This document shows positions 22,705 through 34,461 of a stretch of DNA of 35,960 nucleotides, one piece after another (position 1 is the first letter of the stretch; the number at the start of each line of letters is the position of its first letter). The notes beneath the pieces are model-generated. The model did no database searches. It saw only the letters and a program-made list of their open reading frames with translations, and was not told the origin of the DNA. The DNA is taken from contig JAAFKJ010000120.1 in the NCBI GenBank assembly GCA_021399395.1, positions 1 to 35,960 on the forward strand, given 5' to 3'. Both the position numbers and the translations under genes were made by a program. The DNA is from Candidatus Heimdallarchaeota archaeon. Lineage in GTDB: Archaea; Asgardarchaeota; Heimdallarchaeia; Heimdallarchaeales; Heimdallarchaeaceae.

Positions 22705-25700
22705 CTATTCTTCTTTGCTTTCACCATTTTGTTGATCAGAGTTATTATTATCCCCTATCAAGTCGATTTGTTCTTTGATTATCTTTCTTACTTGCTCAGT
22801 TTCCAAATAACTTTCAGAAATCTTTTTAGTGATTTCCTCGATTTTCTTTGCTTCTTCAATTATTACTTCTGAGTGCATGGACTCAGAAAGTTCGGCATAT
22901 CCCATAACACCCATGAGTGGGTTCCTAATCCTGTCTACTAATTCTGCAAAATCCTCAATGTTTTGGGCAATTTGAGAATAAGCTTGATTTCGTAGAACCT
23001 CATCTCTTTTTCTCTCAGTAATGTCTCTTGCAGTAACTAGGACACTTATTTCACCTTTGAGCATGAAAGGTGTTGCATTAATTTCAACTGGAAAATTGGT
23101 CCCATCTTTTCGTTGAAGCTCTCTTTCAAATGTTATAAAGTCCTTTTCAAACATCTCTTTGAAGTAAGCTTTTATTTCTTCAATCTTGATATCTTTGATA
23201 ACTTGATCTAATTGCAATTTGGTAATTTCTACCTGACCATATCCAGTTTTTGTTAGAGCTACTTGATTCACTTCAACAAATTTACCAATGGTTCCATCTC
23301 GTGGAACACTAATGACTGCAATGATATCGTTTGCATTATGGAAAAGCTGACGATATCTCTCTTCACTCTCTTTTAGTAGAGCTTCAGCTTGTTTTCTTTC
23401 CGTGATGTCGCGCAGTACTGATAAGGCCACTGTTTCATCTCTTAGTTTGAAAATATGGGAACTAATCTCTGTAGGAATCCTTACTCCAGACTTAGTAACT
23501 TGAAATGATTCAAAAGTTGCAGAACCACTCTTAATAAATTGCTCAATGCTACCTGCAAGTGCATCTCTATCCTCTGGAGCTGTTATATCTAGAGATTTTT
23601 TATCTAATAATTCCTCTCTACTATACTCCATCAATTTACATGCTACATCGTTCACTTCTATGAAATTACCAGTAGTTTTAGTTGCCTTATCTACTCGTGT
23701 CAAGAAAATAGCATCATTTGCATTATTGAAGAGTTGTCTGAATTTTTCTTCACTTTCCACTAATTCTTGTTCAGCTTTCTTCCTTTCAGTGATATCTCTA
23801 ACTATTCCTTGTATAACTGGTATTCCACCAACTTCGAAGAAACTTGAAGAAACATCAGCTGGGAATTGTGAACCATCTTTTCTTCGGAAAACAGTTTCAA
23901 ACTGAACTGAACCTTTATCTTGAACCTCCTCAAAAGCATCTTTGGAAGCTTCATGTTCTGTAACAGGATGCAGTTGTGCAATTCTTAATGATAGAAATTC
24001 TGTCTTTGAATAGCCTAATAGATCTTTAGCTCGTTGATTTACATCTATAATATTTCCCTTTACATCATGCAGCATTATTCCATCATTCGATAAATCAAAA
24101 GTTTGCCTGAATTTCTCTTCGCTTTCTTTGAGTGCTAATTCAGCTTTAGCTCTTTCAGTTATGTCTTCTATTACTGCGATTACACCTAAGGTTTTTCCTT
24201 CTTCATCAGCAACATAGGAAGCATTGACTTTAACTGGAAAACGTGTTCCACCTTTCTTTAATGCATTCAGATTTATTATTTGGGAATATTTTTGATTTAT
24301 AATGTCTGATATGGTTGAAAAGGCATCTTCTAAGTCTTCTCGAACAATTATATCTATAGGCGTTAAATCAATCATTGAATCAACATCATCATACTCAAAC
24401 ATCTGAGCAGTTTGAGGATTCGCAAATTGAATTTTATAATCTGTATCTACTAGAACAATAGCATCTGGGGATGTTTCTACAAGTGTACGGTAACGCTCTT
24501 CACTTGCCTTAATTGAATCTTCTGCTTTCTTTTGTTCAGTGATATCACGTGCGATTGAAAGCAAAACTTGTTCGTTATTCAAAGTAAAGAGATGTGAACT
24601 GAATTCAACTGGTTTGATGGAACCTGATTTATTTTGTATTCTACTCTCAAAAGTAACGCTTCCTACATCCAAGATATTGTCTTTCATTTCGAGAAGGAAA
24701 TGCAGATCTAAAACTCCCTGGTTAGCAACTTCAGATTCTAACAGCTCTTCCCTCGAATATTCCAACCAGAGACATGCTGTTTCATTGATCTCTAGAAGAT
24801 TATCAATATCTCCATCCTTTGTTATACTATGAATGAATATTGCATCTTTAGCATTTTGGAATATTTGTCTAAATTTCTCCTCACTCTCTTTCAATGCTTC
24901 TTCTGCTTCTTTTCTTTCTGCAATATCAATGACTACACCTATAAATCCTGTAATACTACCTTCAGTACTCTTTATGGCTGCTGCATGGAATTCTGCAGGG
25001 AGAGTCGTCCCATCTCTTCTTTTAATATTGTATTCTACATCATGTACAAAACCATCTTCTATGCATTTTTGCATTATTATCGAAGCGAACCCCTTATCTT
25101 CATCAGAGACAAGGTCATTAGTTTTCTTACCCAATATTTCATCTTCAGAATTATAACCATGAATCTCAACAGCTTCTAAATTCACAAAAGTAATGTTGCC
25201 ATTTGAATCAGAACTGATGATAGCCGCTGGAATAGTGTCAACCAATCGTCTATATTTCTCTTCGCTTTCTTGTAGATCTCTTCTTGCTCTCTTCCTCTCT
25301 GTTATGTCTCGGGCTATTGATAGAATGACTTGTTTGTCTTCGAGTTTGAAGATATGCGAACTTATTTCTACAGGAATTCTCTTTTTATCTTTTGAGAAGA
25401 GCATTGTTTCAAAGGTTGCAAATCCTTTATCAATAATCCTGCTAATTATCTCAGGATTTGTTTCTCTTTCTTCTGGGGCAGTAATGTCAATAGAAGACAT
25501 CGTAAGAAGCTCATTTCTTTCAAACCCTAACCATCTGATGGAAGCATCATTAACTTCCACAAATTGACTGGATTCATTTTCAGAAGTGAGATGTGAAAGG
25601 AAAATTGCATCGTTTGTATTATGAAAAATCTGTCTGAATCTTTCTTCAGATAGCTCAACCTCTTTCTGAGCTCTCTTTCTCTCGGACATATCTCTAGCTA

Positions 25701-27246
25701 GAGCTAAAATTACTTTCTCTCCTCGAAGTGTAAAAACATTTAAATTATATTCGACTGGTTTTTTACTTCCATCTTTATGGATTAAAAATCCTTCAAAAGT
25801 TACTTCTCCAAATTGTAGTAGACTTTTACCTATATCAGATTGACCTATAGTTTCTTCAGGACTTTGTAGTTCCTGAGGCGTCATCATCAATAATTCTTCT
25901 CTTGTGTAACCTGTCCATTTGCAAGCATTTTCATTGACTTCGATAAACTTACCGAGTTTGTTATCCTCAGTAATAGGATAAATTAGGATTGAATCAGCTG
26001 CATTCTCAAAAATCTGTCTGAATTTCTCTTCACTTGCAACCAGTTCAGCATTTTCTCTCTTTCTCTCTGTTATATCTCGTACAACCGTTAAACTAACTGT
26101 ATCATCACCTAATTCAAATAGATGCGCACTAATCTCAACAAAGAGCTCGTCACCCTTTTTTGTTATGTGATGACGCTCGAAAGTAAGTTTCTTTTTCTCA
26201 AGTAATTCTTGAGCAAATTCTGTTGTTTCCTCCTCACCTGACATATTGAAATTAGAAGGTTTAAGATCTGATATCTCATCTCTAGTATATCCATACATTT
26301 CTAGAGCTATATCATTAACTTCCATAATTTCATCAAAGGTACCATCAGTGTCTCTTCTAACAACAACCATACCGTCATTAGTATTGTGAAATATCTGTTT
26401 GAATCTTTCTTCACTAACTTGTAACTCATCACTGGTTAGTTTGGTATCAGTAATATCGGTAGCTAGTTCTACAGCTCCAATAAGAACACCATCATCACTG
26501 AAAACTGGATAACCTCTGATAAACCATATTTTATTGTCTGGTGTGATGACCTCAGCACTGTGTTCTACACCTGTATTCAAAGCTTTGACAACTGGACAAT
26601 TGTTACAGGGTATATCTGATTGATACCAGAGTTTATAGCAAATTTCACCCATTATTTCATTCGAGGTTTGACCAAGCAAATCACTAGCTATTTTATTTGA
26701 CCATATTATTTTAAGATCTGTGTCATAGAAAATAATGTGCTCTGTAAGAAAATCTAAAAACATCGATTTTTTAAATTCAGATGCAAGAAGTTTTGTTTCT
26801 CTTTGTTTGATTCTAGTAATATCTTCTGTTATTATAAAATATCTATTACTATTTTTTTCTTCTTTTACTGGATATAGGGTGTTTCTGATATACTTCCTTT
26901 TGTCATCCTTTAAGTCAATCCAAAATTCAATTTTTTGAGGAGAAGAGAGACTAGCTTCCTCGATAGTTGTCTTGATTTTCTTCAATCTATTTTTCTCATC
27001 TTTTGCAGCGTAAAATGTACAATTTTTCCCTAAAACTTCATCTATCTCTCGATCGATAATTTCTAAGAAGAATTGATTCGCATGAATAATCTTATCGTCT
27101 TTTACGATAGATATACCTATGTTTGTTTTATTGAATACCTCCCCTAGACCTTCTTCTGACATCTGATTCACTTGAATAGATTTTTTTTTACCCCAGACTG
27201 AGAACCTTACTAATATACTAGTTGGTTCTACAAGAAGGTGTAGCAT
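22705..27246 (-). CDS. Multi-PAS sensor protein (about 11 PAS/PAC units) with degenerate HisKA-like C-terminus
   Basis: Repeated E(E)xFRQIFxNxxDAI... and xxRDITERKxAE; C-terminus NIEDFAELVDRIRNPLMGVMGYAELS with no HATPase motifs. Confidence 0.9.
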   Translation of the reverse strand: MLHLLVEPTSILVRFSVWGKKKSIQVNQMSEEGLGEVFNKTNIGISIVKDDKIIHANQFFLEIIDREIDEVLGKNCTFYAAKDEKNRLKKIKTTIEEASLSSPQKIEFWIDLKDDKRKYIRNTLYPVKEEKNSNRYFIITEDITRIKQRETKLLASEFKKSMFLDFLTEHIIFYDTDLKIIWSNKIASDLLGQTSNEIMGEICYKLWYQSDIPCNNCPVVKALNTGVEHSAEVITPDNKIWFIRGYPVFSDDGVLIGAVELATDITDTKLTSDELQVSEERFKQIFHNTNDGMVVVRRDTDGTFDEIMEVNDIALEMYGYTRDEISDLKPSNFNMSGEEETTEFAQELLEKKKLTFERHHITKKGDELFVEISAHLFELGDDTVSLTVVRDITERKRENAELVASEEKFRQIFENAADSILIYPITEDNKLGKFIEVNENACKWTGYTREELLMMTPQELQSPEETIGQSDIGKSLLQFGEVTFEGFLIHKDGSKKPVEYNLNVFTLRGEKVILALARDMSERKRAQKEVELSEERFRQIFHNTNDAIFLSHLTSENESSQFVEVNDASIRWLGFERNELLTMSSIDITAPEERETNPEIISRIIDKGFATFETMLFSKDKKRIPVEISSHIFKLEDKQVILSIARDITERKRARRDLQESEEKYRRLVDTIPAAIISSDSNGNITFVNLEAVEIHGYNSEDEILGKKTNDLVSDEDKGFASIIMQKCIEDGFVHDVEYNIKRRDGTTLPAEFHAAAIKSTEGSITGFIGVVIDIAERKEAEEALKESEEKFRQIFQNAKDAIFIHSITKDGDIDNLLEINETACLWLEYSREELLESEVANQGVLDLHFLLEMKDNILDVGSVTFESRIQNKSGSIKPVEFSSHLFTLNNEQVLLSIARDITEQKKAEDSIKASEERYRTLVETSPDAIVLVDTDYKIQFANPQTAQMFEYDDVDSMIDLTPIDIIVREDLEDAFSTISDIINQKYSQIINLNALKKGGTRFPVKVNASYVADEEGKTLGVIAVIEDITERAKAELALKESEEKFRQTFDLSNDGIMLHDVKGNIIDVNQRAKDLLGYSKTEFLSLRIAQLHPVTEHEASKDAFEEVQDKGSVQFETVFRRKDGSQFPADVSSSFFEVGGIPVIQGIVRDITERKKAEQELVESEEKFRQLFNNANDAIFLTRVDKATKTTGNFIEVNDVACKLMEYSREELLDKKSLDITAPEDRDALAGSIEQFIKSGSATFESFQVTKSGVRIPTEISSHIFKLRDETVALSVLRDITERKQAEALLKESEERYRQLFHNANDIIAVISVPRDGTIGKFVEVNQVALTKTGYGQVEITKLQLDQVIKDIKIEEIKAYFKEMFEKDFITFERELQRKDGTNFPVEINATPFMLKGEISVLVTARDITERKRDEVLRNQAYSQIAQNIEDFAELVDRIRNPLMGVMGYAELSESMHSEVIIEEAKKIEEITKKISESYLETEQVRKIIKEQIDLIGDNNNSDQQNGESKEE

Positions 27247-27302
27247 TATAATTTTAATAAGATTGTGTTGGTTCTAGTCGTAATTTTTTAAGTAGAAGAA
27301 TT

Positions 27303-28418
27303 TTATATGGTCCTTAAACCGGCTCTATCGAAAACATAGATGCTTTCAGCATAAACAATTATCTGAATTGTTGATTTTCTTTCAAATTCCTTTATAGTTT
27401 TTGTTACAAAAACGATTCTCTCTTCATTAAAATTAAGTGTTAAAATCTGCTGGTCTAGAACTTTTTCAACGTCTTCTATTATACATTCAAGAATGAGCAT
27501 ATTTTCTTCAATAGGTCGTTCAGAATCTAGTTCTCTCACTAACTCTGCTCTGAATCCAATTTCACCCTCTTCCAAACTATTTCTTGATACTATTTCTTCT
27601 ACTGAATTTGGTAATTCTATTTTCTTATCATTGTTTAATATCAGATTCTTATCCTTTTTGTGGAAAGATAGGAAATTCATAGGAAAATTACCAATAAATT
27701 CCGCCACAAATCTATTTTTCGGATTATTATATAATTCATCAGGAGAACCAATTTGAACTATCTCACCTTCATTCAGTAGAACAATTATATCTCCCAAAGC
27801 CATAGCTTCTGATTGATCATGTGTAACATAAATCATAGTTCTGTTTATCATTCCATGTAGTGTTCTGATCCATGTTCGCATTTCGTATCTTAATCTAGCA
27901 TCTATATTACTTAGAGGTTCATCAAATAAGAATAAAACTGGTTCTCGGATCAATTCTCTACCTATTGCAACTCGCTGTTTTTCCCCTCCTGAAAGCTGAG
28001 AAGGATATTTGTTTGTGTGTTCTTCGATATGAAGTAGTTTCAAGGTTTCTTCTACCTTTGCTTTTATTTCTTCATCACTGTAAATTCTCTTTTTGAAGAT
28101 TTGACCTTCTCTTTGACTCTCTAAAGGAAATCTAAGATTTTCACGTACTGTCATGTGGGGAAAAAGAGGATAGTTTTGAAAAACCATTGCTATATTTCGT
28201 TTATTTGCTGGTTTCTGTGTGATATTATCCTCTCCAAAAAATATTTTTCCTTCTGAAGGATATAGAAGTCCTGCTATTAATCTAAGCAAGGTTGTTTTTC
28301 CACTACCAGAGGGACCTAATATTACAAGGAAACTACTGTCTGGTATCTCTAAATTTACCTTATTGAGAGCTATCTTCTCCCCATATCTTTTTGTTAGATT
28401 TTTTGTTGTTACCTTCAT
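27303..28418 (-). CDS. ABC sugar importer ATPase (MalK/UgpC/MsmX-like)
   Basis: Walker A GPSGSGKTT, LSGGEKQRVAIGREL, FLFDEPLSNID, MALGDIIVLLNEGEIVQIGSPDELYNNPKN, TOBE-like C-terminus. Confidence 0.93.
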   Translation of the reverse strand: MKVTTKNLTKRYGEKIALNKVNLEIPDSSFLVILGPSGSGKTTLLRLIAGLLYPSEGKIFFGEDNITQKPANKRNIAMVFQNYPLFPHMTVRENLRFPLESQREGQIFKKRIYSDEEIKAKVEETLKLLHIEEHTNKYPSQLSGGEKQRVAIGRELIREPVLFLFDEPLSNIDARLRYEMRTWIRTLHGMINRTMIYVTHDQSEAMALGDIIVLLNEGEIVQIGSPDELYNNPKNRFVAEFIGNFPMNFLSFHKKDKNLILNNDKKIELPNSVEEIVSRNSLEEGEIGFRAELVRELDSERPIEENMLILECIIEDVEKVLDQQILTLNFNEERIVFVTKTIKEFERKSTIQIIVYAESIYVFDRAGLRTI

Positions 28419-31400
28419 TTAAATCTCCCTAATATTTGTTGAACTGCCAAAACCACTTAGAAGATAATTTCTAAGGAATACAAAGATGATTAATAATGGA
28501 ATTACTACAAGGATAGAGGCTGCTGCAAACAATCCCCATTCAGGTGAACTTGACTCAATAGAACCCACAAACGTGAATATTTTTATCGGTAGAGTATATT
28601 TTGCTGGTGATTGTAAAAGAACAAAGGCTAATAGAAAACCATTCCAAGTTCTCAAGAAACTAAGAAGGAATGTTATTGCGATTGCAGGACCTGCTAAAGG
28701 TAATATTATCTTTCTTAAAACTCTGAACTTTGAGTTCCCCATTAATGTCGCAGATTCATCCAATTCTTTTGGTATAGAATCCATATACCCTTTTATTACC
28801 CAGAGAGCCAGAGGAATTGTATGTGTGCTGTAAGCTAGAATTATTCCAAAGTATGAGTCAATTAAACCCATATTATACATGATTAAAAAGAATGGAATTA
28901 GGGTCAAAATTCCTGTAAACATTTTTAGTGTAAAAACCCCGACCATAATCTCTTTTTTACCAGTGAAAGTATACCTAGAAAAAGCATATGCGGCCAGAGA
29001 AGTTAAACCAACACATAAGGTTGCAGATCCCAAGGAAATGAGCAATGAATTCAAGAAGTTTAAGTGAATTTGCTCTTGTGTAAATAATGAAGTAAAGTTC
29101 TCTAGAGTTGGATTATCTGGGAAAAATGATGTTGGAACCAGACTATCTCCTTTGGAAAAAGCAATCCAGAATATATTCCAAAGAGGTAAAAGAGTAACTA
29201 GCAAAATAGTAACTAAGAAGATAGTAATATTTCTGGGTTTTAAGATATTTTTTGCTAATTTCTGTATTTTGCTCTTATCAGAATCTGCTAAAGCAGTTAA
29301 ACCAAAACATAAGATTGCTGATCCCAGGAAAATGAGTAGTGGATTTAGGAAGTTTAGCTGAACTTGTTCTTGGGTGGATAACAGACTAAACCCAACATTG
29401 GAGAAATTATCCGGAGAAAAGATTATTGGTACCAAGCTACCTATGTTCGATAAAGCAATTCCGAATACATTCCAAAAGGGTAGAAGAGTAACTAGTAGAA
29501 TAACAATAAATAATATAGAATTAAATCGAGGTTTTGCGATATAATTTATCAGTTTCAGAATTTTGCTATTTAGGAACTCTATCCCTTTTTGATAGATCTT
29601 CGCTGCTCCTAATATATATGCTAATGAAAGTAAACTCAAGATAACAGTCCATCCCATAGGAACATTAGAGAATATAAATCCACACCAAAGTAGAGGCTGT
29701 AGAATAATTGCAGTCTTAAGTATGATTTTTGAAAAAAGACTGGCACATAATACTGTAACATAAACACCAAAAATCAACCACACTAACCATATATTTGCTT
29801 CTATCGTAAAAGCTGAAAGAAAGATGAAAATCGTTTGTAGAGTTACTATGACATGTAAAGGTGACAGTGTAATTAAATTCTGATCAATTTTATACAATAC
29901 ATTTTTGATCTTCTTAACTGCATTATTGGCAACAGTCTTAACCCTTTCAAGCAATTCTGGAAGAGTAAATGGGATTTTCGACAATTGAATATTTGATAGA
30001 ATATACATCTCTGCAACAATTATGAAAATATTCCAGTTGAATGCATACCACATCTGATAGAAGAAGAATTGCATTAAAGCCAGTATCAGATCAAGCAATA
30101 AAATATATCTCACCGTTTTGATGACTTGACTTTTGATCACGATACAAAAAATTGCCATAGTAAAATACAATCCTGCTAATATATAGTTTAAATAGGGATT
30201 CCAATAAATTCCAAAGTACCTGAACCCAAAGATTCCTGCTACAAGATATCCAATAGCTTGCAAGAAAAAGAGAACTATTATTATACTTCTATTCTTTGAA
30301 ACAGATTTTTTCTTTTCTGGATTGAATGTACTCTGTGTTCCCCTTGACATCTTTAACCATACCAAAACGAAAAAGAGCGTTAATAGACTCATAATTGTAG
30401 AGTATGCAGCTGCTATCCCGATATCTCTCCTCTCATAAAACATATAGAAAGTGAAAGTACTGAAAAGATCCGTAGCTCCAATTACACCAGCTTCGCTCGT
30501 ACCATATGATAATAATGGATAACCTTTCGTTAGTAAAAATGCTACATTGAAACTACCAAACGTTTTGATAATTTCGAGGATTATAGCTGGTAGTATAATA
30601 GGTTTGATTAAAGGAACAATTACCTTTCGTATTTTTGTTCCTTCAGAAATTTGGTCTATTTCTGCTAGGTCATTTATCTCCTTTGGTATGCTGCTTAAGC
30701 CACCTAAGAAGAGAGTAGTTATCAATGGTATTGAATCCCATACTTCCACAAAACAAGCTATAAACAACGTTGCATAAGGCTGTGTTAGAAGATTAAAATT
30801 GGTACCAAATAGAGTATTGAATAGAGACACACTTCCATTCCCGTGAATGAAGGTTCGCCAAGATAATATCTTGATGTATGATGGTATAGCCCATGGGATG
30901 TACAACATAAGATACCATAATTTTTTCCTTTTTACTTTGTACTGGATAATGTATGCTAAAATAAATCCCAAGATAATTTTCGCAACTATAATCAAAACAC
31001 TCCATACGAGGGTTGTGGTGAATGTTATGGGTAATTGAGGGTTTTCTGCAATGTGAGCATAATTATCAAACCCTGTTAATACAGGAGTTTCTCCTCGTTG
31101 TAAACTATAATCTGTAAAGGATAGAAAGATACCATAGAGTATGGGGTATACTTCCAATAGAACTAGTGCTAGGAGTGCTGGAAAAATAAAGATGTAGGCA
31201 ATCTTGTTGAAAGGAATATCTCTTTTAGCTATGAAAAAGAAGATAGCTACGAAAATAATGACAATGACTAATAACGATAATGAAGTTGCAAGTTTCGAAT
31301 ATTCCAAATTATCATCAAAACTTAAAAGAGTTTCAAATTGCTCAGATTCCCAGTATTGAACTTCAGATTCTGTGGTTATGAGGTAATCTCCTTGGTCAGA

Positions 31401-31880
31401 TGTTAAAGATACATTGACCAAATGAAGTGATATAGAATAAAGACTCGTAGGTTCAAGTCCTGTTATCCTAGTTTGAATAGTTTCTGCACCCTCATCTACA
31501 AGATATATTGAAAAATTCGAAGTCTGAAATTTTTGTGAGATGAATGTTTCATCCCCAATAGAGTAATTGACTTGAGAAAAATATTCTAGAGTTATATCTT
31601 GAGTGTCATTTAATATCACCATAGACCAAGTAAAGCTTTGATTTAGTGCAACATCATAGTAATCAATTCTGAAGCCATGGTAAATAGAAGAACTAGGACA
31701 AGTCCAATTAACTATAGCATATCTATCCCCTATTTCTATTAAGGAAGTTTCTTCAGATTGAGCGCTAACATTGTAATGATTTTGGAATAGCAGAGATACA
31801 AGCACAATACTGCCTATTATCAAAAACATAGACAGTTTCTTTTTAGCTATTTTTCTCTCTCTACTCCTATTACTATTCAT
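28419..31880 (-). CDS. Fused MalF-MalG-type ABC permease with FN3-like N-terminal ectodomain
   Basis: Two EAA-type loops in one ORF (EINDLAEIDQISEGTKIRKVIVPLIKPIILPA and ELDESATLMGNSKFRVLRKIILPLAGPAIA). ORF extends to 31913, but ATG at 31880 overlaps the upstream gene less. Confidence 0.88.
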   Translation of the reverse strand: MNSNRSRERKIAKKKLSMFLIIGSIVLVSLLFQNHYNVSAQSEETSLIEIGDRYAIVNWTCPSSSIYHGFRIDYYDVALNQSFTWSMVILNDTQDITLEYFSQVNYSIGDETFISQKFQTSNFSIYLVDEGAETIQTRITGLEPTSLYSISLHLVNVSLTSDQGDYLITTESEVQYWESEQFETLLSFDDNLEYSKLATSLSLLVIVIIFVAIFFFIAKRDIPFNKIAYIFIFPALLALVLLEVYPILYGIFLSFTDYSLQRGETPVLTGFDNYAHIAENPQLPITFTTTLVWSVLIIVAKIILGFILAYIIQYKVKRKKLWYLMLYIPWAIPSYIKILSWRTFIHGNGSVSLFNTLFGTNFNLLTQPYATLFIACFVEVWDSIPLITTLFLGGLSSIPKEINDLAEIDQISEGTKIRKVIVPLIKPIILPAIILEIIKTFGSFNVAFLLTKGYPLLSYGTSEAGVIGATDLFSTFTFYMFYERRDIGIAAAYSTIMSLLTLFFVLVWLKMSRGTQSTFNPEKKKSVSKNRSIIIVLFFLQAIGYLVAGIFGFRYFGIYWNPYLNYILAGLYFTMAIFCIVIKSQVIKTVRYILLLDLILALMQFFFYQMWYAFNWNIFIIVAEMYILSNIQLSKIPFTLPELLERVKTVANNAVKKIKNVLYKIDQNLITLSPLHVIVTLQTIFIFLSAFTIEANIWLVWLIFGVYVTVLCASLFSKIILKTAIILQPLLWCGFIFSNVPMGWTVILSLLSLAYILGAAKIYQKGIEFLNSKILKLINYIAKPRFNSILFIVILLVTLLPFWNVFGIALSNIGSLVPIIFSPDNFSNVGFSLLSTQEQVQLNFLNPLLIFLGSAILCFGLTALADSDKSKIQKLAKNILKPRNITIFLVTILLVTLLPLWNIFWIAFSKGDSLVPTSFFPDNPTLENFTSLFTQEQIHLNFLNSLLISLGSATLCVGLTSLAAYAFSRYTFTGKKEIMVGVFTLKMFTGILTLIPFFLIMYNMGLIDSYFGIILAYSTHTIPLALWVIKGYMDSIPKELDESATLMGNSKFRVLRKIILPLAGPAIAITFLLSFLRTWNGFLLAFVLLQSPAKYTLPIKIFTFVGSIESSSPEWGLFAAASILVVIPLLIIFVFLRNYLLSGFGSSTNIREI
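28990..29577 (-). repeat. Internal tandem duplication in the permease gene (2 x about 294 bp)
   Basis: Several landmarks recur at an exact 294-bp offset: agttaaacca (29001/29295), tgaa.ttg.tcttg (29065/29359), agagtaacta (29191/29485), ggtttt (29236/29530). Confidence 0.9.
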
Positions 31881-33138
31881 CTTTATTTGCCTCAATATTC
31901 TGCTGAGCTTCATCTAATGTTGCCTGTATATCTTGATGATCTAATAAGATGAAGTTCAAAGCTGCTCTCATAAATTCTGAGTAAATTATGTAATAAGGGT
32001 CGAGGGGGTAATATTGACTATATTCTATTTGTTTCATTTGTTTGAGAATTAAAGGTTCATCCTGAACCAAAGGAGAACTTTCAAGTTCTTTCAAAGTTGG
32101 TACCTTATATTCCTCTGTCAATAGATTTTCTTGAACAGATGCTGAAGTTAAAAATCTTACAATGTCATAGCAAATATCTGGATTTTGTGTATCTTTTGAC
32201 ATACCCCACCCTTTAACTTCAACCATAGGTGTAATCCTCTGGTTTGTAGACGAGATTGTAGGTAAAACCTCTACTCCATAATTTACATCAAGTTCATTTA
32301 AAGCTGGAATATACCACCCTCCATAAATTAACATCCCTGCTTTATCGGTGGAAAAAGCCTGTGTTGCAGAACTGCTACTATCGTCGTATTTAACACATCT
32401 GTGAGTATATTTGAGGTCGTAGATATACTCTAGAGAATTGACAGAAGCAGTGTCATTTACTACAATATCACCTCCTTGGTATAATGGCCCATGATCAAAT
32501 CCATATTGAAAAGCAGGCCACATATATGGTGAAATGGTGGCCCAAGAAAGGCCGTAAACATCTTCTGGTCTATTGGTTAGATTAAGAGCAGTTTCCAATA
32601 ATTCTACACTTGTCCAATTTTCTTGTGGATAAGACTGAGCATTATTATCAAATAGATCTTTGTTATAGAAAAGTAGGATAGAATCAAACCAAAGAGGAAG
32701 ACCCCATAATTCATTATTATAACTCAACCCATTAATCCCAGAAGTAATGTATTCGGCTTCTTCTGATGGGGTGAGGAAATTAGTTAAGGACTGGATATAA
32801 CCTAGTTCAGCAAGTTCACCAAACCAAGATCCTTTAGCGAGAAAAATATCCGGAGCGTTCCCCGTTTGCGCGACATTGATGAATTTATCAATCCAACTTG
32901 ATGATGGTTGTTCAATAAAATTAATACTAATAGAAGGATTGCGAAGCTCATATTCTGCAATTGCTTCTCCAATAACATCTCCCCCTTCATACGTGTACCA
33001 TAATTCTATTACAATCTCATTGTCTCTTTGATTATAAAAACTGAAAAAAATCGCAGGAACTATCAAACTTAGTATTAGAACTGCAACTAGTGTTATTTTC
33101 AGATATTTTGAAACCATATCATGATTCACTTCTTTCAT
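31873..33138 (-). CDS. Extracellular solute-binding protein, family 1 (sugar ABC importer)
   Basis: N-terminal TM/signal, IVIELWYTYEGGDVIGEAIAEYELRNPSISINFIEQPSSSWIDKFINVAQTGNAPDIFLAKGSW, ending next to the permease gene. Confidence 0.9.
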   Translation of the reverse strand: MKEVNHDMVSKYLKITLVAVLILSLIVPAIFFSFYNQRDNEIVIELWYTYEGGDVIGEAIAEYELRNPSISINFIEQPSSSWIDKFINVAQTGNAPDIFLAKGSWFGELAELGYIQSLTNFLTPSEEAEYITSGINGLSYNNELWGLPLWFDSILLFYNKDLFDNNAQSYPQENWTSVELLETALNLTNRPEDVYGLSWATISPYMWPAFQYGFDHGPLYQGGDIVVNDTASVNSLEYIYDLKYTHRCVKYDDSSSSATQAFSTDKAGMLIYGGWYIPALNELDVNYGVEVLPTISSTNQRITPMVEVKGWGMSKDTQNPDICYDIVRFLTSASVQENLLTEEYKVPTLKELESSPLVQDEPLILKQMKQIEYSQYYPLDPYYIIYSEFMRAALNFILLDHQDIQATLDEAQQNIEANKDE

Positions 33139-33276
33139 TGAAAACTTTCTAATGAACGATAAAAGAAGAATTATTTAATCAATGTTTTGCATAGAACATG
33201 ACAGATATCTTTCATAAATACTTTAGAACTTGGGCTCTAGCAAAAATTTAAAACTATTATAATAGATTTACAATCA

Positions 33277-34293
33277 ATGAGCTTAAAGACAAAAATTCTG
33301 TTAGGGGTAATCTCACTTTTAGTCTTAACTGGAATAGGTTTAGGAGTCTATTTTGGTGCTTTTTATGCGCCTAATGGAGAACCTGACCCTGACCCTGACC
33401 CTGACCCTGTAGTTCTTACTATTTATGGTGATAATTCTGAAGCTAATTTTACATTAACTGAGTTGAAAAGTCTAGCAAATGTTACAGGATATGCTGGTTA
33501 CAGAAAATCTACTGGAACTATTGTGGGACCTAATTTATTCAAAGGTGTCTTATTAACGAATTTAATTGCAGAAGTTGGAGGTCTTTCAGCTGGTGAGGAA
33601 CTTGAGGTCATATCAGGTGATCAATACAAAGTAACGTTCACAAACGCAATGATTAATGGTCAATTTCCTGCATATGATAACATAACCGGGGATTATCTAG
33701 GTATCAAAGATTTTAGAGTTATTGTAGCTTATGAAATGGATGGACAGAAACTTTCTACTTCAGATGGTGTTTTAAGAATTGCTTGTTTAGCCGAAGAAGG
33801 TGAGGGTTACCTGTCAGATGGATCACCTTGGGTGAAAGATGTTCAAACAATTAAAGTAATCTCTTCAGCTTCATGGAATGTTTTTCTTTATGGGGCAATC
33901 AATGATAGTATAGACAAAGCAACGTTTGAAGCTTTCATGTATATGAATGATGAAGCCAATTTACTTGTTTATCAATTACTAGAAGATGGCAGAACCAATA
34001 CTTATGAGGGTTTAGCCCTTTGGAGAATATTGGCACTTTTTGATGATGATGATCCTTACACATTCAATGAAACACTTGCTTCAAATGGATATTCAATAAT
34101 TCTGAAGAATGCTCTGAATGAGAGTATAATACTTGATTCTACAGCTGTTTCTTTGAATGAGAGTTTTATTCTAGCTGCTAAGAAAAATGCTATATTTTTG
34201 TCTGACGATCTAGCACCATTAATACTAGTTGGTCCAGGTATTTCTGAGATGCAAATGATTAATGGGATAGACAGAATTGATCTTGAATTCTAA
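33277..34293 (+). CDS. Membrane-anchored extracellular protein with tandem SUOX/molybdopterin-binding-like domains
   Basis: N-terminal TM, (DP)n linker, FKGVLLTNLIAEVGGL...GDQYKVTFTNAMINGQFPAYD...GVLRIACLAEEGEGYLSDGSPWVKDVQTIKV. Second, weaker copy around YEGLALWRILALFDDD...NGYSIILKNA. Confidence 0.65.
   Translation: MSLKTKILLGVISLLVLTGIGLGVYFGAFYAPNGEPDPDPDPDPVVLTIYGDNSEANFTLTELKSLANVTGYAGYRKSTGTIVGPNLFKGVLLTNLIAEVGGLSAGEELEVISGDQYKVTFTNAMINGQFPAYDNITGDYLGIKDFRVIVAYEMDGQKLSTSDGVLRIACLAEEGEGYLSDGSPWVKDVQTIKVISSASWNVFLYGAINDSIDKATFEAFMYMNDEANLLVYQLLEDGRTNTYEGLALWRILALFDDDDPYTFNETLASNGYSIILKNALNESIILDSTAVSLNESFILAAKKNAIFLSDDLAPLILVGPGISEMQMINGIDRIDLEF
33382..33409 (+). repeat. Hexanucleotide microsatellite (CCTGAC)n encoding (DP)n
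   Basis: cctgaccctgaccctgaccctgaccctg, four complete units plus a partial. Confidence 0.95.
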
Positions 34294-34461
34294 TCAGTTT
34301 TCTAAATCTATTCTTCATTTTAATAATACAACTTATTAGCAATAATAAACTTAATAATCAGATATGAAAAAAATTGAAACGAGCAAAGCTTCTTTTAGAA
34401 GTTTAATTAATCTGGTTCTTTATATAACCAAAACAAATAACTAATATTGAGTGGGAAAAGA

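Follow-up and report, generated by a model that had tools for sequence, protein, structure and literature searches.

The locus analyzed here raises the question of whether an archaeal sugar importer can have both of its permease subunits, MalF and MalG, made as one chain and, if so, what the additional domains of such a chain might do. The window, i.e., the whole stretch of 35,960 nucleotides under study, is contig C25 of a draft metagenome assembly (2.8 Mb, 201 contigs) of a Heimdallarchaeota archaeon.

A Single Reading Frame Carries Both Permease Halves

The frame and its segments are as follows (aa, residue numbers in the fused chain):

28419..31913, minus strand: fused MalF-MalG permease, 1164 aa, with two BPD_transp_1 domains and matches to the MalF and MalG models
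31776..31835, minus strand: signal peptide or signal anchor, aa 27-46, a hydropathy peak
31296..31775, minus strand: FN3-like ectodomain, aa 47-206
30309..31295, minus strand: MalF-like half, aa 207-535, matching SugA and MalF
30594..30689, minus strand: EAA loop 1, aa 409-440
29535..30308, minus strand: 8-TM linker domain, aa 536-793, 4+4 helices flanking a basic helix
29241..29534, minus strand: extra 98-aa segment, aa 794-891
28422..29240, minus strand: MalG-like half, aa 892-1164, matching SugB and MalG
28680..28775, minus strand: EAA loop 2, aa 1047-1078

Zero internal stops interrupt the 1164 residues encoded from 31913 to 28419, and the single frame indeed holds, as the earlier note had claimed, one MalF-like and one MalG-like EAA loop, with the MalF-like half first and the MalG-like half second. 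That note's start at 31880 is an in-frame ATG, codon 12 of the longer frame, and both starts are possible. The two BPD_transp_1 matches (E 4.5e-18 at 28461-28922 and 5.5e-12 at 30366-30977) have sugar permeases as their top relatives (MalG, GlcU, MalF, SugA/B), and the NCBIfam MalF and MalG models align to aa 278-525 (5e-26) and aa 897-1157 (2.4e-34), respectively, both under their equivalog cut-offs. Among solved structures the halves are nearest to the trehalose permeases SugB (8.8e-38) and SugA (2.5e-24) and to the maltose permeases MalG and MalF. EAA loop 2 keeps its glycine; EAA loop 1 retains the D-x-A element but carries glutamine in place of the canonical glycine in all family members, a feature that counts against the functional reading proposed below. 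AlphaFold2 modeling of the full-length chain was poor (pLDDT 47, pTM 0.32) and is unusable for domain arrangement or packing.

A Compact Operon with Binding Protein and ATPase

The permease gene is flanked in a compact operon by two partners, the first overlapping its upstream end and the second abutting it downstream:

31873..33138, minus strand: MalE-like sugar-binding protein with an N-terminal TM anchor
27303..28418, minus strand: MalK-like ATPase

The binding protein matches MalE and the acarbose/maltose-binding protein GacH, and its membrane anchor, already noted from the window, is confirmed from the N-termini; the ATPase has complete Walker A, Q-loop, LSGGEKQ signature, Walker B and H-loop elements. 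As no sugar-catabolic gene was recognized beside the operon, a maltodextrin- or trehalose-like substrate is a guess.

Two further genes frame this cassette. A 1513-aa protein with 11 PAS_9 matches, in which no kinase domain was found (window 22705-27246), travels with the transporter, and a protein with an anchor at its N terminus, which weakly matches Oxidored_molyb (7e-4), lies divergent to the MalE-like gene (33277-34293). In the complete genome of a relative (G022) a Na/Ca exchanger directly adjoins an ABC exporter at the corresponding site, and that site lacks the entire block that begins with the PAS gene, runs through the MalK-like, permease and MalE-like genes and ends with the gene for the small anchored protein (window about 22705-34300), indicating that this block was gained or lost as one unit.

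As a separate observation on ATPases of this type, MalK-like proteins from order- and class-level Heimdall relatives (L028:1793-3265, L031:1425-2792, L067:3982-5364 and L068:7785-9140) bear roughly 80 additional aa, with TM-like hydrophobic stretches, inserted between Q-loop and LSGGQ signature. The two motifs are 135-138 residues apart in these proteins, compared with 63 in the window and 54 in L029. It would be unusual for an ATPase subunit to have a membrane hairpin of its own.

An FN3-Like, Probably Glycosylated Ectodomain

The possibility that the N-terminal domain is not FN3-like fails against the Pfam profile: fn3 (PF00041) is matched by 14 of 17 family members (best E 2.7e-8) and is the sole Pfam family matched by a majority of their ectodomains, with the window copy at E 4.7e-4 and 20.8 bits, short of the gathering score of 25 bits. 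PDB profile matches point to fibronectin, titin and tencon, all weakly, and secondary structure in the low-confidence full-length AlphaFold2 model is all-beta here (blocks of pLDDT about 36-75). The earlier description of a region that ends with an FN3-like signature is somewhat inexact as to extent, as the match spans aa 57-169 and accommodates an insertion inside the domain.

The ectodomain also concentrates N-X-S/T sequons. Counting as conserved those present in at least 60% of alignment rows, we find five (aa 69, 102, 116, 133 and 167), every one in the ectodomain and none elsewhere in the chain, at 4.67 sequons per 100 aa vs. 0.1-0.6 in the rest; without exception, the invariant asparagines of the domain (69, 116, 133 and 167) are sequon asparagines. 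An STT3/AglB oligosaccharyltransferase gene is present in the same genome, and Asgard archaea are known to encode oligosaccharyltransferase homologs (PMC10307638). The domain is probably N-glycosylated. A near-invariant AQ right after the first hydrophobic stretch suggests signal-peptide cleavage, and the ectodomain is outward-facing whether the signal peptide is cleaved or the anchor retained.

A Family-Specific Linker Joins the Halves

The additional TM helices proposed between the halves number eight in the AlphaFold2 model of the linker region (mean pLDDT 80), in agreement with the hydropathy peaks, and in our reading the predicted K/R-rich loops lie where cytoplasmic loops would be expected. 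The linker was found in no family but the fused one, whose 19 genomes all conserve it as part of the fused chain. Most of its 29 invariant columns lie within the first 4-TM unit, which is rich in invariant polar and aromatic residues (FRYFG, Q-FF, QMW, NW), and a poorly conserved loop separates this unit from the second.

Searches for the origin of the linker returned no relative among PDB sequences, no Foldseek match to its model with E below 0.001, and no counterpart in viral contigs. Assignment to a known Pfam domain was rejected, with one stray DUF2721 match in 1 of the 19 members, as was an internal duplication of one 4-TM unit from the other (hhalign probability 0.2%). Multi-TM additions do occur on other permeases: MalG-like proteins of related genomes carry long N-terminal extensions of about 4 or about 10 helices (L033-L036, L028, L067:5368-6909 and L068:6261-7775), and a DppC-like permease of the window's own genome repeats 4-TM units over a long stretch at its N terminus (L005:40-2076, contig C20). 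Kinship of the linker to either group was likewise rejected (hhalign probability at most 2.3% for each).

Two alternative readings of the fusion hinge on this domain. The linker could be a membrane module with a role in sensing or regulation, and the fusion would then be a transporter-sensor that is coupled to the co-traveling PAS protein; the linker's invariant polar and aromatic residues exceed the needs of a spacer, and PAS protein and transporter are missing together from the same site in G022. However, no sensory domain is recognizable in it by Pfam, Foldseek or PDB sequence searches, few neighbors are less conserved across genomes than the PAS protein (36-76%), which has no known contact with the linker, and we consider this reading unlikely. 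Alternatively, the chain may be a polyprotein cut within the linker to yield ordinary separate MalF and MalG subunits, as the variable loop between the 4-TM units and the resemblance of both halves to normal subunits would allow; with neither a protease site nor a protease gene evident, and with the linker itself so consistently conserved and fused, we regard such processing as very unlikely.

The Fusion Is Conserved Among Related Heimdallarchaeota

Although the source is a draft metagenome assembly, the recurrence of the same single ORF across 18 further genomes, which come from different assemblies, in practice refutes an artefact of assembly or frameshift joining two genes. These related Heimdallarchaeota share the one-ORF architecture at 54-74% identity; 16 of the copies are full-length (1051-1067 aa) and two are cut by contig ends. 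Nearly all 18 have a MalE-size ORF ahead of the permease and a same-strand ORF at the MalK position, and in six named contigs the flanking MalE/MalK homology and gene order also match. The fused permease was not found in three same-genus genomes, in one of which the contig stops inside the MalE gene, and when 228 genomes of the phylum were searched (threshold E 1e-15), the remaining matches proved to be single permeases, either ordinary or extended at the N terminus.

The earlier note's statement that two separate permeases are the norm in this importer family is in line both with other Asgard genomes, where MalF and MalG are separate genes, and with plasmid-borne relatives: 2695 plasmid records match, none over 80% of the fused query in one place, and among the annotated matches listed most have two separate permease genes. 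No report of fused MalF-MalG was found within an open-access library. Sequencing error does not account for the fused permease, which is genuine and conserved, a variant on an importer type that is well known.

A Duplicated TM Hairpin in the Window Copy

Peculiar to this genome is the segment at aa 794-891, a diverged tandem duplicate of TM1-TM2 of the MalG-like half, which, like the five conserved sequons, had escaped the earlier note. It aligns gap-free to aa 892-989, with 51 of the first 83 residues identical, and at 68% DNA identity between the copies it is not a collapsed or repeated read. Synonymous divergence (dS) is 0.90 between the two hairpins vs. 2.0, near saturation, between the second copy and its G001 orthologue, whereas dN/dS is 0.29 vs. 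0.06 for the same comparisons; most likely, the duplication postdates the split from G001 and evolved under weaker constraint with the frame kept. By hydropathy the segment brings two more hydrophobic stretches, an even number, so that the topology need not change.

Comparison with Known Importers

E. coli MalFGK2-E shares with the Heimdall system the MalF- and MalG-like halves, two EAA loops, a MalK-type ATPase, a MalE-type binding protein and an extracellular domain on the MalF half, but encodes MalF and MalG as separate genes and has no linker domain. The extracellular P2 domain of E. coli MalF sits between TM3 and TM4, whereas the FN3-like domain is N-terminal. The mycobacterial trehalose importer LpqY-SugABC provides the closest solved sequences for both halves, yet its permeases are separate and lack both the FN3 ectodomain and the linker. 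Two BPD_transp_1 domains per chain are found in FbpB/AfuB, ThiP and PhnU2 (TIGR03262), with three examples in this genome; these, however, belong to other substrates and sequence families, measure about 550-600 aa and join their halves directly, with no 8-TM linker. The single ORF, in 19 genomes, departs from the usual two-polypeptide CUT1 layout, and the claim of an unusual architecture is borne out for the fusion, the FN3-like ectodomain and the anchored binding protein; taken by itself, the fusion is less exceptional than the earlier note implied, since two-domain permeases exist in sister importer families and in this very genome, and it represents a new variant and not a new kind.

An exception in size among these two-domain permeases is a fused permease of 975 aa in this genome (L065:3701-6625, minus strand, contig C171), which combines two BPD_transp_1 domains with an LVIVD-repeat, beta-propeller-like ectodomain in place of a linker.

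Proposed Mechanism and Implications

In light of the fusion, operon, FN3 match, sequons and conservation, all evident from sequence, we propose, at a probability of roughly 75%, that the locus encodes a single-chain CUT1 (type I, MalFG-type) sugar-importer permease that would work as MalFGK2E does. Synthesis of MalF and MalG as one chain would guarantee 1:1 pairing of the halves, and an even-numbered, 8-TM domain could join them with the topology unchanged, as the MalF end and the MalG start are both cytoplasmic. A homodimer of the MalK-like ATPase would be seated on the two EAA loops, and sugar would be captured by the membrane-anchored MalE-like protein. The FN3 domain, placed outside just ahead of the MalF-half core, would most likely give the binding protein a post to dock on or act as its spacer. 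In the E. coli importer, the P2 loop of MalF moves around MalE (PMC8134467) and is described as interacting with it in the course of catalysis (Daus et al. 2009, as cited in PMC3328499); by analogy, the FN3 domain might serve like this MalE-contacting loop. A more far-reaching version, in which an N-glycosylated FN3 domain independently took the P2 role, the linker is a new regulatory membrane domain and the window copy captures the gain of a TM hairpin through tandem duplication within the gene, is tentative and, taken as a whole, doubtful.

By fixing the pairing of importer halves, the fused chain offers a naturally occurring single-chain construct with which asymmetric MalFG-type importers could be studied, and its window copy a datable case of internal TM-hairpin duplication in a transporter. 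It further suggests that in archaea close to eukaryotes, which have no outer membrane, permeases are fitted with extracellular domains that are glycosylated.
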